Shown: positions 32,092 to 43,587 of the stretch, in pieces
Numbering within the stretch: the first letter of the stretch is position 1
Layout: every line of letters starts with the position of its first letter
NCBI GenBank assembly: GCA_028278405.1
Contig: JANQEK010000003.1
Coordinates: 62,001 to 126,000 of the forward strand
Direction of reading: 5' to 3'
DNA length: 64,000 nt
Source of the DNA: Nitrospinaceae bacterium
GTDB taxonomy: Bacteria > Nitrospinota > Nitrospinia > Nitrospinales > Nitrospinaceae
Program-made: the position numbers and the translations under genes
The notes under the pieces: model-generated
What the model saw: the letters and a program-made list of their open reading frames with translations, nothing else
Told to the model about the DNA's origin: nothing
Databases searched by the model: none

Positions 32092-32784
32092 TCAGGCCAG
32101 CAACTGACCATATTCCCATCGTCCGGCATAGACTTGTCCGTTTGCCAGAATATGAACTCCCTCTCCATGCGGTAGATCATCTTTAAGTTGGCCCATGTAC
32201 CGGTCGCCGTTTGCGTAGTGGTATTTTCCTTTGCCGTTCATGGAATCCTCCCGGAATTCTCCCGTGTATGAATCGCCGTTGGAGTACACCATTTTTCCCT
32301 GACCGTCAGCCTTGCCGTATTTGAACTGACCCGTATATTTATCGCCGTTGGCGGAGGTGTAGATTCCCATGCCATGCGGTACGCCGTTGATGATCTGGCC
32401 TTCATAGGTATCGCCGTTAGGCCAGGACCGGGTGAAAAAACCGTGCGCTTCCTCCGATTCTTTTGTGGATGAATGAGGACCTCTTTCGGCTTCCCTGTCC
32501 TGGGTTGGGTCTTCGGGTGAAAAAGGCCGCCGTGCGGTTTTCGAGGGTTGCTCATCGGCAAACTTGGAACGTGAGCGGGTTCCGTAGATGTTCTCAAGAA
32601 ATTTGAAAGCCTCGCCGATTTTCTGGAATTTGGCATGGGCTTTTTGTTGAGCCTGCGCGTCCTCTGCGGGAAAGCGATCCGGGTGCCAGCGTTTGACCTC
32701 GGACTTGTAAGCACGCTTGATTTCCTTCCAGGAGGCTCCCGGCGGGAGCTTTAGGATGTCAAAGTACTGCTTCATGGTTTCCAT
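32092..32784 (-). CDS. J-domain protein fused to MORN repeats
   Basis: The 230-residue protein has an N-terminal DnaJ domain (about 5-70) with the signature HPD in KSEVKRWHPDRFPAEDAQ, so it should stimulate a DnaK-type ATPase. A charged linker follows (about 72-108). The C-terminal half is about five MORN repeats of 23 residues, recognisable by NGDTYEGQ, NGDKYTGQF, NGDSYTGEF, NGDRYMGQL and NGQVYAGRW. MORN repeats bind lipids or proteins at membranes. Two in-frame ATGs (32784, 32775) are possible. The gene is isolated, between the Cld-like terminator and accD. Confidence 0.9.
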   Translation of the reverse strand: METMKQYFDILKLPPGASWKEIKRAYKSEVKRWHPDRFPAEDAQAQQKAHAKFQKIGEAFKFLENIYGTRSRSKFADEQPSKTARRPFSPEDPTQDREAERGPHSSTKESEEAHGFFTRSWPNGDTYEGQIINGVPHGMGIYTSANGDKYTGQFKYGKADGQGKMVYSNGDSYTGEFREDSMNGKGKYHYANGDRYMGQLKDDLPHGEGVHILANGQVYAGRWEYGQLLA

Positions 32785-37488: not shown

Positions 37489-38214
37489 CTAGGTCAGACT
37501 TCCGATGGTTTTTTTCTGGAGAGCAATCAGTTCCTTAATTCCTTTGTTAGCCAGGCTGAGCATGGCATCCATGTCTTTATCGTTGAAGGGTTCTTGTTCT
37601 GCAGTTCCCTGAATTTCGACGAAACCCCCCTTGCCGGTTTTGACGATATTCATATCAACTTCCGCTACCGAGTCTTCGCTATATTCCAAATCGAGAATTT
37701 TTTTACCTTCCAGAATGCCAACACTGGTGGCCGCCACGAAATCCTTGACCGGAATGGTTTCAATCTTCTTTTCTTTTTTCAGTTGTTTCATAGCCAGACA
37801 CATGGCGACGAAGGCGCCGGTGATCGAAGCGGTGCGGGTTCCTCCGTCGGCTTGAATAACATCGCAATCGATCCAGATGGTGCGCTCGCCCAGTTGTTCC
37901 ATGTCGACCACTGTGCGTAGAGACCGTCCGATGAGCCGTTGAATTTCCTGAGTGCGTCCTGAAACTTTGCCGCGGGACGATTCCCGGGACATGCGGGTAT
38001 GGGTGGAACGGGGCAGCATGGAATATTCAGCGGTAACCCATCCCTGGTTTTTGTCCCGCAAGAACGGTGGCACTTTTTCTTCGACACTGGCGTTGCAGAT
38101 GACCTTGGTATCTCCCACTTGAATGAGAACAGACCCCTCGGCATGCTTGATAAAGTTTTTCTTGATGGTTACGGCTCTCATTTGGTTGGGCGCGCGCCCG
38201 TCGCTTCTGGACAT
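37489..38214 (-). CDS. rph: Ribonuclease PH
   Basis: The 241-residue phosphorolytic 3'-5' exoribonuclease trims tRNA 3' ends. The start ([20 protein letters not shown]) and [20 protein letters not shown] are typical, with the phosphate-binding and catalytic region [20 protein letters not shown], and [20 protein letters not shown]. Length is standard. It is single-gene by spacing; no rdgB or other partner is adjacent. Confidence 0.97.
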
Positions 38215-38529: not shown

Positions 38530-40770
38530 ATGGACTCATATTTTCAAGATGGAGTAAAACTCAAGGGAGTTTTACACAGTAAAGGCGTTCTCCACATTGG
38601 AGGGGAATTCGAAGGTGAGCTTTTTTCTACTGATCATCTGGTGATCGGTAAAGGAGGATTCGTCAAGGGTACTATCAAGACATTCGATCTTACCAACATG
38701 GGTAAGGTTAAGGGTGATGTGGCGGCTGAAAACAAAGTGAACCTCAAAGAGGAGAGCGATCTTGAGGGAGACATCTCGACTTATCAGTTGATTGTAGACG
38801 AAGGCTCGAGTTTCGAAGGCCGTTGTAAGATGACCAAGATCAAACCCGAGTCGAAGATTCCTTCCGAGCCCAAGAAAAAAGAACCGGTTGAACCTGTAAA
38901 GGAAATCGATGAAGTTAGCGAAGACATTCGGGCTGCTGCAAAGCAAATCACTCCGGACAGTTTTGAAATCCCGGAAAGTCAACCGAGCTCGCCGAAGCAA
39001 CCCGTTTTTGCATTTCTCTCCAAGATTCCTAGGAAAGGGAAAATCGCTGCTGGAGTGGCTGCCGGTTTGGCTGTTATCGGTCTTGTGGCCATGCAGTTCA
39101 GCGGGCCGAAACCCAACAGCGTTGCTGACCTCCTGAACAAAGGAACCACTTATCTGGAGCAGAAGAAATTTACAGACGCTGAAGGGGAGTTTTTGAAGGC
39201 TTTAAAGGTCTCCCGCAACAATCCCCATGTTTATGCCGGACTGGGTGAAGTTTATCTGCAAAAGAAGGAATGGAACCAGGCTCTGACTCAATTCCAGCGT
39301 TCTCTCGATCTCCAGCCGCAGGAAAATACCTATCGTATCAAGCTTGCAAAAGTTTACTCCGGCAAAGGCCAGGTCAAGGAAGCGACCGACATTTATCAAT
39401 CGGTCATCGATCAGGACCCGCAAAACCCTCAGGCCTTTTACGAGTTGGGAGTTTTGAAGTTGAACAAAGGAGCGCGGGATGACGGCATTGCTGCGTTAAA
39501 AATGGCTTCCCGGGTGGACCCCGGTTACTACAAGCCTCATCAGAAATTAGCGGAATTGTACATGGAGGAGAACAGGGTTCCCGAGGCCATTCAGCAAATG
39601 AAGCAAGCAGTCCGGGCCCAGAAGGATAAGCCTGAACTTCATTTGGTTCTGGCAGAATTACTCATCAAAAACAATCAAGAGGAAGAGGCCGTAGGCGAGT
39701 TTGAACGGGTGGTCGAACTGTTTCCCGAAAACCTGAAAGCTCGGATGAAGGTGGCCGCATGGTATTTTGAGAAGGGCGATATTCCCAAATCGTTGGATTC
39801 CTACCAAGCCGCGGAGGAACTGGATCCTGAAAACGACATTATTCAAACTCAGTTGGGTAGAATATATCTCCTCAACCAGGACAAAGAAAAGGCCGAATTG
39901 GCTCTACGAAAAGCCGTCCAAATCAACGATCAAAACGGGGAAGGATTTTACCTGTTTGGAAAGCTTTTAAGCCAGGATCAAAAGCTGGATGAGGCTCAAA
40001 CGGCACTCGAGACCGCTGTGGAACTGGATCCCAAATTGGGTGGCGCTCATTATGAATTGGGCCGGATTTTTGTGGCGAATAAGCAGGTGGCTTCCGCTGC
40101 CCAATCTTTTGAGAAAGCGTTTAAAGCCGATCCCGAAAACTTGGAATATATGCTGGCATTGGGCACCTCGCAGACGCAAAGTAAAAACCCCAACCGGGCC
40201 GTGGAAGTCCTGTTAAAAGCCACCAAGATGGCGCCGGACAATGGTTCGGTTTCTCATGCGCTGTGCGAGGCTTATAAAAAGAAGGGGTACTACAGAGTCA
40301 GTATTGAACATTGTGAAAAGGCCTTGAAAATTCTCCCGAATTCTCATCCGGTGATGAATCGTTTGGCCTGGCTATATGCAAAGAAAAAAACCAAACTGTC
40401 CAAGGCCCAAAGATTGTCCAGAAAAGCGGTGAAGTCTGATCCGGAAAACCACCGATACCTGGATACATTGGCGGAAGTTTATTATGTCCGCGGGAAAAAA
40501 GACCAAGCCATTGCGACCATTAAAAAAGCTCTGGAAATCGATGCGAACAATCGTTTATACAAGCAGCAGTTGTGGCGTTTCAAGCATATCAAGCTCACTC
40601 CAAAGAAAACAGAGCCCGTCGCTTCCAGCGAACCGGCAGATAATTCTGAAGTGGAAAATACTGTAGAGGAAACTTCGGAAAGTGTCGATATGGAAACCTC
40701 TGAAGAAGTGTCACCGGAAGAAGAAAATCAGGAAACTTCTGAAGTGCAGCCCTTTGCTGAAGAACTTTAG
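38530..40770 (+). CDS. Bactofilin-TM-TPR fusion protein
   Basis: The 746-residue protein starts with a bactofilin (DUF583) beta-helix domain (about 1-105: GVLHSKGVLHIGGEFEGELF, with DHLVIGKGGFVKGTI and AAENKVNLKEESDLEGDIST). A Pro/Lys-rich linker leads to one membrane segment (about 172-190, IAAGVAAGLAVIGLVAMQF). About 14 TPR repeats fill roughly 195-690, followed by a Glu/Ser-rich acidic tail (about 700-746). Bactofilins polymerise into cytoplasmic filaments at the membrane; with one membrane pass the TPRs would lie in the periplasm. The fusion could tie an internal scaffold to periplasmic cell-wall machinery; that is inference. The ATG has weak upstream signals. Confidence 0.88.
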   Translation: MDSYFQDGVKLKGVLHSKGVLHIGGEFEGELFSTDHLVIGKGGFVKGTIKTFDLTNMGKVKGDVAAENKVNLKEESDLEGDISTYQLIVDEGSSFEGRCKMTKIKPESKIPSEPKKKEPVEPVKEIDEVSEDIRAAAKQITPDSFEIPESQPSSPKQPVFAFLSKIPRKGKIAAGVAAGLAVIGLVAMQFSGPKPNSVADLLNKGTTYLEQKKFTDAEGEFLKALKVSRNNPHVYAGLGEVYLQKKEWNQALTQFQRSLDLQPQENTYRIKLAKVYSGKGQVKEATDIYQSVIDQDPQNPQAFYELGVLKLNKGARDDGIAALKMASRVDPGYYKPHQKLAELYMEENRVPEAIQQMKQAVRAQKDKPELHLVLAELLIKNNQEEEAVGEFERVVELFPENLKARMKVAAWYFEKGDIPKSLDSYQAAEELDPENDIIQTQLGRIYLLNQDKEKAELALRKAVQINDQNGEGFYLFGKLLSQDQKLDEAQTALETAVELDPKLGGAHYELGRIFVANKQVASAAQSFEKAFKADPENLEYMLALGTSQTQSKNPNRAVEVLLKATKMAPDNGSVSHALCEAYKKKGYYRVSIEHCEKALKILPNSHPVMNRLAWLYAKKKTKLSKAQRLSRKAVKSDPENHRYLDTLAEVYYVRGKKDQAIATIKKALEIDANNRLYKQQLWRFKHIKLTPKKTEPVASSEPADNSEVENTVEETSESVDMETSEEVSPEEENQETSEVQPFAEEL

Positions 40771-40773
40771 CAA

Positions 40774-41715
40774 TCAGATTGTCCCCATTCCTTTCAATCC
40801 GATATAACTGAAATAGCATAGCAGGAGGAGAATTCCATCCAGTTTTTTTAGCTGATGGCTCCAGCTGATGAGAAGGAGGAGGAAGCAAGTCACTCCGGTG
40901 GTGATCAGCAGGTCAGGATGGATCTGCTCTTGGATGATGAGAGGATGGAGGGTAGCGCTGGCTCCCAGGACCATAAAGATGTTAAAGATGTTACTTCCGA
41001 AGATGTTTCCCAGAGCCATCTCTCCATGGCCTCGTCGGGCGGACAAAAGTGATGAAACAATTTCCGGCAAACTGGTCCCCAGCGCGACGATTGAAATTCC
41101 AATAAACCATTCACTGATTCCCAATTTGCGGGCAATGTTGACAGCGCCATGGACCATCCATTCCGCTCCCAGGATCAATAGAACCAATCCCACCAGAGTC
41201 AGTACGGCTTGATAACCTATTCCCTTGCCGGAGAAAAGAGCAAAGTCATCCTCCAGATCAAGATTTGAATCCTCATCGCTCTTGAGCGCTTTCCAAGCAT
41301 AGATCATCAGGCCCGTCAGCAATAAAATGCCCTCCCAGCGGGTCAGGGTATAATTCCAGGCCAGAGCCAGAATGAGAAACGTGGCAATGAGAAGGGGAGG
41401 GGCTTCAGATTTAAACCGTTTTGGAGCGATGGTGAGAGGGACGATCAAAGCCGTTAATCCAAGGACCAAACCCACATTGGCGATATTACTTCCGATAACA
41501 TTTCCCACGGCTACTTCGGCCTCATCGCGGAAGGAGGCCAGTATGCTGACCGCCAGTTCAGGAGATGACGTTCCGAAACCCATTACCGTTGCGCCAATCA
41601 CGAAGGGGCTGATTTTATAACGATGCGCGATTCTCAGGCTTCCGGTGATCAGGGATTCACCGCCATAATACAATAAGGCAAGGCCTGCCAGCACGTAGAT
41701 GGAATCAATAATCAT
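40774..41715 (-). CDS. Calcium/sodium (CaCA, YrbG-like) antiporter
   Basis: The 313-residue inner-membrane protein has about ten hydrophobic segments with two inverted alpha-repeats, GFGTSSPELAVS with GNVIGSNIANVG, and ALGTSLPEIVSS with GNIFGSNIFNIF. Their Glu/Asn residues coordinate the exchanged cation. Family members exchange Ca2+ for Na+, K+ or H+. An acidic loop (KSDEDSNLDLEDDFALF) joins the halves. It converges with the bactofilin-TPR gene, 3 nt between stops. Confidence 0.92.
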   Translation of the reverse strand: MIIDSIYVLAGLALLYYGGESLITGSLRIAHRYKISPFVIGATVMGFGTSSPELAVSILASFRDEAEVAVGNVIGSNIANVGLVLGLTALIVPLTIAPKRFKSEAPPLLIATFLILALAWNYTLTRWEGILLLTGLMIYAWKALKSDEDSNLDLEDDFALFSGKGIGYQAVLTLVGLVLLILGAEWMVHGAVNIARKLGISEWFIGISIVALGTSLPEIVSSLLSARRGHGEMALGNIFGSNIFNIFMVLGASATLHPLIIQEQIHPDLLITTGVTCFLLLLISWSHQLKKLDGILLLLCYFSYIGLKGMGTI

Positions 41716-42495: not shown

Positions 42496-43587
42496 TCAGG
42501 ATTTTTTACGAATCAGGGTTCCCTTATATCCCAGATTTTCCAGTTTTTTCTGGCCTTCGAGGGCATTCGTGTTGGATTCAAATCCTCCGACACGGACGAT
42601 AAACATTCGTAAATCAATTTTCATTTGTTTCAGGCTGGTGAAAATACCCTGCTTGGCGAACCTTTGTTTGAGCGCTTCGGCTCTTTCCTTTGATTTTTCC
42701 TTGCCTAGAACAATTGAGTAGCTCCCGTTGGCATTTTTTTTCAATACGGGGTTCAGTCCCTTGTTCTTCAATTCGTCCATCATGTTCTGAGGGCTCTTTC
42801 TATCTGCAAATCCCCCTATAAAAACTGTGTACATGGCGGAACGGGTTGTTCGGGTCTGAACCAGAGGGGAGAACCCACCCGACATCAGTTTCTTTATCAC
42901 GCGGTCCGCATTGGCTTTCACCGAGAAAGCTCCTACTTGTATGAAAAATTCACTTTGTGCCGTTGTCAGTAGAGGTGCAGGGGGCTTGGAGGGTTTGGCC
43001 GATGCTCCTACGTTGGGTTCAGGTACCGTGTTGAGCGCTGGTTTTGCTGGAGCCGGAGGCGCTTCAACCTCAGGGGTTGAATCGTTCTTTGCCATAGAGG
43101 AATCGTCTCGGGAAGGCGCAACAGGTTCCGGTTTGAGGCTACTAGACGCAGCGTTCTCCGGTTCCTCCAGGTTTTTTTGAATCATGGAGATCACTTCATT
43201 TTCCAGAGGGCTCAGGTTTTCATTTCTGGGCTCGATGACGACCGGATCCGAAGTTTCGGCGGCCGGAGCGGACTCGGTTACCGGAAAGGGAATGGGTTTT
43301 GGGGTAGGCCCCAGCGTGGGCGGTGCCTGTGTCACTTGCGCCTCTTCCATCAGAAATGAGGGCACAGGAATAGTCTGGTTTTGTACCGCCGTGTAGATGA
43401 CATAAAACAATCCCACTCCCACAAGAATCACCAGTAGCATTCTGGTATTATTAGAACGCAATTTCTGATTGATCTCGGCCTGAGCCTCAATCTCTGCGTC
43501 CAGAATCAAGTCGTCGATTTTTTTAATGGTTTTTTTATGTTGGGGTCGTTCACTCTGTTGAGGTTCGTTAAATAGTTTGGAAGACAT
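42496..43587 (-). CDS. SPOR-domain membrane protein
   Basis: The 363-residue protein has a cytoplasmic N-terminus, one membrane segment (about 49-67, TRMLLVILVGVGLFYVIYTA), a long Pro/Ala/Glu-rich linker (70-210) and two SPOR-like repeats. The first is clear (about 212-290: EFFIQVGAFSVKANADRVIK, with YTVFIGGFADR), and a second is at about 290-363 (SYSIVLGKEKSKERAEALKQ, then FIVRVGGFESNTNA). SPOR domains bind denuded peptidoglycan at the division septum, so a cell-division or wall-remodelling role is likely (FtsN/DamX/DedD-like in layout). A terminator follows. Confidence 0.88.
   Translation of the reverse strand: MSSKLFNEPQQSERPQHKKTIKKIDDLILDAEIEAQAEINQKLRSNNTRMLLVILVGVGLFYVIYTAVQNQTIPVPSFLMEEAQVTQAPPTLGPTPKPIPFPVTESAPAAETSDPVVIEPRNENLSPLENEVISMIQKNLEEPENAASSSLKPEPVAPSRDDSSMAKNDSTPEVEAPPAPAKPALNTVPEPNVGASAKPSKPPAPLLTTAQSEFFIQVGAFSVKANADRVIKKLMSGGFSPLVQTRTTRSAMYTVFIGGFADRKSPQNMMDELKNKGLNPVLKKNANGSYSIVLGKEKSKERAEALKQRFAKQGIFTSLKQMKIDLRMFIVRVGGFESNTNALEGQKKLENLGYKGTLIRKKS

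Follow-up and report, generated by a model that had tools for sequence, protein, structure and literature searches.

Bactofilins form filaments in bacteria and as a rule stand alone in the cytoplasm. Canonical bactofilins carry a short N-terminal membrane-targeting peptide with the consensus MFSKKKK, and in BacA of Caulobacter the substitution F130R abolishes polymerisation (PMC12448750). About 3.2% of bactofilins, mainly those of gammaproteobacteria, have N-terminal transmembrane (TM) helices (PMC12448750). A bactofilin recruits the bitopic M23 endopeptidase LmdC via the cytoplasmic tail of LmdC (PMC10945521), and bitopic PbpC is recruited likewise, the PbpC peptide binding bactofilin with a KD of 4.9 uM (PMC12448750). 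On the periplasmic side, NlpI is a TPR protein that scaffolds peptidoglycan hydrolases (PMC7049810), and in the LbcA-CtpA system a periplasmic TPR protein is the scaffold for a protease controlling peptidoglycan hydrolases (PMC11021448).

The gene studied here lies in a window of 64,000 nucleotides of Nitrospinaceae DNA (the whole stretch that was analysed), and its product shares with the canonical bactofilins of Caulobacter and Thermus the fold, the profile match and the polymerisation phenylalanine. It differs in its size of 746 aa, the canonical bactofilins of this survey being mostly of 110-200 aa, and in that it lacks the short N-terminal membrane peptide and continues beyond the domain with a TM helix and a large TPR part. 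Like the bactofilins with N-terminal TM helices it would be membrane-integral; in those proteins, however, the helix precedes the domain, whereas the Nitrospinota helix follows it. LmdC and PbpC also consist of a cytoplasmic part, one TM helix and a large periplasmic domain, but they are separate enzyme-bearing proteins that are bound non-covalently, whereas in the fusion the bactofilin itself would be the cytoplasmic part and a TPR array the periplasmic part. NlpI and LbcA too use a TPR superhelix as a docking surface, but both are lipoproteins without a cytoskeletal domain, and membership of their families is not claimed for the fusion. RodZ, in which a cytoplasmic part that engages the cytoskeleton is followed by one TM helix and a periplasmic domain, binds MreB and is not itself a polymer; it is alike in the outline of its working only, and no sequence relation is claimed.

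Results

The gene occupies positions 38530..40770 of the forward strand as an ATG-initiated open reading frame, and all of its features given below lie on that strand. The original prediction for this frame was a bactofilin joined through one membrane helix to about 14 TPRs and an acidic tail, and the domain order (bactofilin, linker, TM helix, 14 TPRs, tail) was confirmed in every particular by Pfam, AlphaFold2 and the orthologues. In the full-length AlphaFold2 model (31 aligned sequences, mean pLDDT 82) a beta helix at residues 3-101 is followed by disorder at about 110-173, one helix at 174-189, 28 helices within 198-670, a capping helix at 675-686 and disorder at 693-746. Mean conservation is highest for the bactofilin among the domains (0.76), lies between 0.53 and 0.72 for each TPR, and is 0.32 for the linker and 0.16 for the tail.

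The bactofilin beta-helix domain (residues 3-101; 38536..38832) matches PF04519 over residues 5-100 with 77.1 bits against a cut-off of 27.9 (E=1.3e-21), within the region (residues 1-105) to which it had been assigned. Against solved structures, phmmer found Caulobacter BacA at 2.2e-6 and the Thermus bactofilin at 0.0038. Since generic TPR-array matches dominated the Foldseek search with the full model, with the LbcA structure among the hits, the bactofilin domain was modelled separately, and this model (pLDDT 94.7) matched the Thermus filament subunit 6rib with a TM-score by target of 0.94 and an rmsd of 1.0 A, as well as 6ria (0.94), which is the F105R mutant of the Thermus protein, and 2n3d (0.88). 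In the phmmer alignments F95 (codon 38812..38814) is aligned with the polymerisation residue, F130 of Caulobacter BacA and F105 of the Thermus protein, and it is invariant in 24 of 24 diverse orthologues from all sampled families. Since F95 is invariant and no other domain of the chain is as conserved as the bactofilin, we infer that the Nitrospinota fusion bactofilin polymerises. An N-terminal peptide resembling MFSKKKK was not found: the protein starts MDSYFQDG and, with the domain beginning at residue 3, there is no room for a targeting peptide.

The domain is followed by a disordered linker (residues 102-171; 38833..39042), with pLDDT below 50 over most of its length, that is predicted to be cytoplasmic, and then by the single predicted TM helix (residues 172-190; 39043..39099). 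This is the sole strongly hydrophobic 19-residue stretch of the protein, with a Kyte-Doolittle value of 2.11 where the next best reaches 0.65, and in a control four of 2000 shuffles of residues 102-198 reached 2.1; the helix expected at about this position is thus present, and it is a helix in the model as well. The N-terminal side of the TM helix is net positive in 44 of 46 evaluable orthologues, the other two having no positive charge preceding it, and the sequence of the bactofilin-TPR protein contains no signal peptide. Because of this flank charge and the absence of a signal peptide, the bactofilin is predicted to be cytoplasmic and the TPRs periplasmic, which would make the protein a bitopic inner-membrane protein in the N-in orientation and agrees with the earlier suggestion of a filament inside and TPRs outside. 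As the helix lies C-terminal to the bactofilin domain, it is the C-terminal domain that would be placed across the membrane, on its far side.

It could also be argued that the TPRs stay on the cytoplasmic face, by way of a peripheral or re-entrant helix or the opposite orientation, and form a cytoplasmic scaffold at the membrane. There is a precedent in E. coli LapB, a TM-plus-TPR protein that faces the cytoplasm, the LapB model matching the window's protein weakly and far below its cut-off, and the hydrophobic segment is weak in a sister genus (1.28-1.46). With one spanning helix, however, such a placement demands that the N-terminal bactofilin be exported, yet there is no signal peptide; the charge bias is N-in throughout nearly all the orthologues, and in distant families the helix is strongly hydrophobic (up to 2.75). 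We consider cytoplasmic TPRs quite unlikely for these reasons and retain the bitopic, N-in topology as our prediction.

The repeats (residues 198-674; 39121..40551), predicted to be periplasmic, are matched by TPR_2, TPR_19, TPR_16 and other TPR models of Pfam down to E=5.6e-53, and the 34-residue spacing of the model helices gives exactly 14 repeats, the array belonging to the TPR clan. C-terminal to them is the capping helix (residues 675-686; 40552..40587), the best-conserved segment of the array. The disordered tail (residues 690-746; 40597..40767) is acidic as foreseen, with a net charge of -17, but acidity did not hold as a general trait: only the window's genus has the acidic tail, along with one sister genus in which its form differs. 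This tail was added locally and is poorly conserved.

The best curated TPR model was that of PrsT from the PEP-CTERM system (TIGR02917), with E=2.7e-65 but 220.8 bits against a cut-off of 312.2, and the protein was not assigned to this family. The match would suit a protein that acts in envelope or polysaccharide export with its TPRs in the periplasm, and in which the bactofilin, whose fold could act as a clustering module, is a mere oligomerisation tag that forms small clusters and has no cytoskeletal role. The invariance of F95 and the conservation of the bactofilin above that of the TPRs would be unexpected for a passive tag, however, and no export genes were seen adjoining the gene. A passive tag is unlikely in our judgement, and we prefer a cytoskeletal bactofilin that carries the TPR array.

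An orthologue was present in 12 of 12 genomes of the window's family and, in a frame of at least 400 aa, in 58 of the 77 species genomes of Nitrospinota (hand count). These genomes represent eight of the nine families (f1-f4 and f6-f9); the single genome of f5 has a short bactofilin only, and several further orthologues are cut by contig ends. All 48 orthologues checked read bactofilin, then TM helix, then TPRs, Pfam being run on six divergent members, and L075 and L078 also have the TM helix, although an overlong bactofilin match masked it in one scan. The number of TPRs varies among orthologues, with about six in the shortest full-length proteins.

In one genus, g15, a frame change at a T run within the TM codons interrupts the orthologue (L116:2913-5016 and L117:8001-9474), after which the TPR part of L116 continues open in another frame and L117 is further disrupted; a real split, a slippage site and a sequencing error are each compatible with this break. 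Halves separated in this way are also what might be expected if the chain were an artefact of assembly or gene modelling, with two adjacent genes read as one. The frame is unbroken in dozens of separately assembled genomes, however, including the single-contig G008 and G047, and this recurrence refutes an artefact for the family as a whole, leaving it a negligible prospect.

In a tree of bactofilin domains, 25 of 25 fusion domains fell into one clade (support 100/98), and this clade is separate from the bactofilins of Bdellovibrionota and Acidobacteriota as well as from the short and mid-sized ones that the fusion-bearing genomes also encode; the tree was built from 97 columns and its inner order is weak, while the branch of the fusion clade is well supported. 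Since all the fusion domains form one supported clade, the bactofilin-TPR fusion looks old and single and is best seen as one event in Nitrospinota. Two stand-alone bactofilins of genome G014 (L158 and L159) also lie inside the clade, likely through secondary loss or duplication, and the L159 bactofilin is followed by a frame resembling a PAS-type histidine kinase. Among the matches listed for 192 Bdellovibrionota and 80 Acidobacteriota genomes there was no bactofilin-TM-TPR fusion, and none came from a pattern scan of the genome collection with a pattern tuned to the window's protein. The Bdellovibrionota bactofilins among the matches listed were all of 166 aa or less. Acidobacteriota frames of up to 651 aa were rejected as fusions, as in these an ordinary bactofilin at the C-terminus is merely preceded by open frame and there is no TPR.

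Throughout the order the gene lies between the divergent rph (RNase PH; 37489..38214, reverse strand) and a convergent gene of the Na/Ca-exchanger family (40774..41715, reverse strand), both assigned by Pfam and synteny. Since it stands singly between these two, no operon partner is indicated by the context, and the neighbours are uninformative about function. Outside the order the neighbours differ and are mostly envelope genes, such as those for a heptosyltransferase and LpxI (both in f6 and f9) and one for a glycosyl hydrolase of family 3 (in f7), which weakly fits an envelope role. RNA elements, promoters and terminators near the gene were sought and none stood above chance. No M23 gene adjoins any bactofilin gene of the window's genome, the four M23 genes found being on contigs C12, C26, C39 and C1 and the bactofilin genes on C11, C24 and C25, and a module of the bacA-lmdC type was rejected on this ground. 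MreB was present in 12 of 12 family genomes searched, which means that the fusion protein is not a replacement for a lost MreB shape system.

Two further genes of the window, both on the reverse strand, were recorded. Downstream of the exchanger gene, 42496-43587 encodes a SPOR-domain protein (two stretches), and its association with pyrD and alr is conserved across the order. At 32092-32784, adjoining accD, a J domain is followed by four MORN repeats, and similar frames occupy the same position in several family genomes.

On contig C25 (68000-84000) of the same genome a mid-sized bactofilin of 192 aa adjoins an L,D-transpeptidase (YkuD) gene (L047:4861-6639). Over about 80 N-terminal residues, which have no Pfam match, the two proteins are homologous (38% identity, E=1e-13), and this suggests a docking domain common to the bactofilin and the wall enzyme. 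The same locus contains a 440-aa ParA/MinD-like ATPase gene, a short bactofilin and parAB. On contig C24 (L048:7047-8255) a protein of 402 aa that has a hydrophobic N-terminus and weakly resembles a bactofilin over two stretches (E=2.7e-7) is perhaps an exported beta-helix protein.

Discussion

The architecture described here is real and conserved and is undescribed in the open-licence text searched, no account of a bactofilin-TPR chain having been found in its titles, abstracts and passages. We think it reasonably probable that the protein is a bitopic bactofilin of the inner membrane and that its filament holds TPR arms in a periplasmic array, on which envelope enzymes would dock. The N-terminal beta helix would polymerise in the cytoplasm, either alone or with the short bactofilins of the same genome, and the single TM helix would anchor each subunit, substituting for the lipid-binding N-terminal peptide, with the flexible linker of about 70 residues allowing relative movement of anchor and filament. 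Each subunit would bear a periplasmic superhelix of up to 14 TPRs as a protein-docking surface, and the polymer would then display a row of periplasmic arms that could set the sites of envelope-building or envelope-cutting enzymes. In this manner one chain would do a job for which other bacteria use two proteins, a bactofilin in the cytoplasm and a bitopic client, for instance LmdC or PbpC. Docking of envelope enzymes on the arm is proposed by analogy with the periplasmic TPR arrays that serve peptidoglycan hydrolases, or their controlling protease, as a scaffold; the range of partners bound by TPRs is too wide for those of the fusion to be predicted.

The protein may link the filament to the wall or to periplasmic partners, as the original prediction had supposed, and the retention of F95 together with the phylum-wide conservation makes such a physical link more credible. 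More tentatively, it may be a Nitrospinota-specific element, a membrane-spanning filament subunit that joins the bactofilin polymer covalently to a periplasmic TPR scaffold and positions envelope synthesis, a proposal that we would call quite possible but just short of probable. A role in cell shape or envelope growth would be in keeping with such an element.

The route by which positional information crosses the inner membrane from cytoplasmic bactofilin filaments is under active study. Separately bound clients provide it in the cases studied, and a one-piece version, if true, would make the link covalent. A natural one-piece bactofilin that has been kept across a phylum is a clean test object for the link between filament and periplasm. 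Nitrospinota are a mostly uncultured phylum that includes abundant marine nitrite oxidisers, and the gene is a candidate morphogenesis gene for them. Since most of the phylum has the fusion, these bacteria may possess a built-in bridge between skeleton and envelope.
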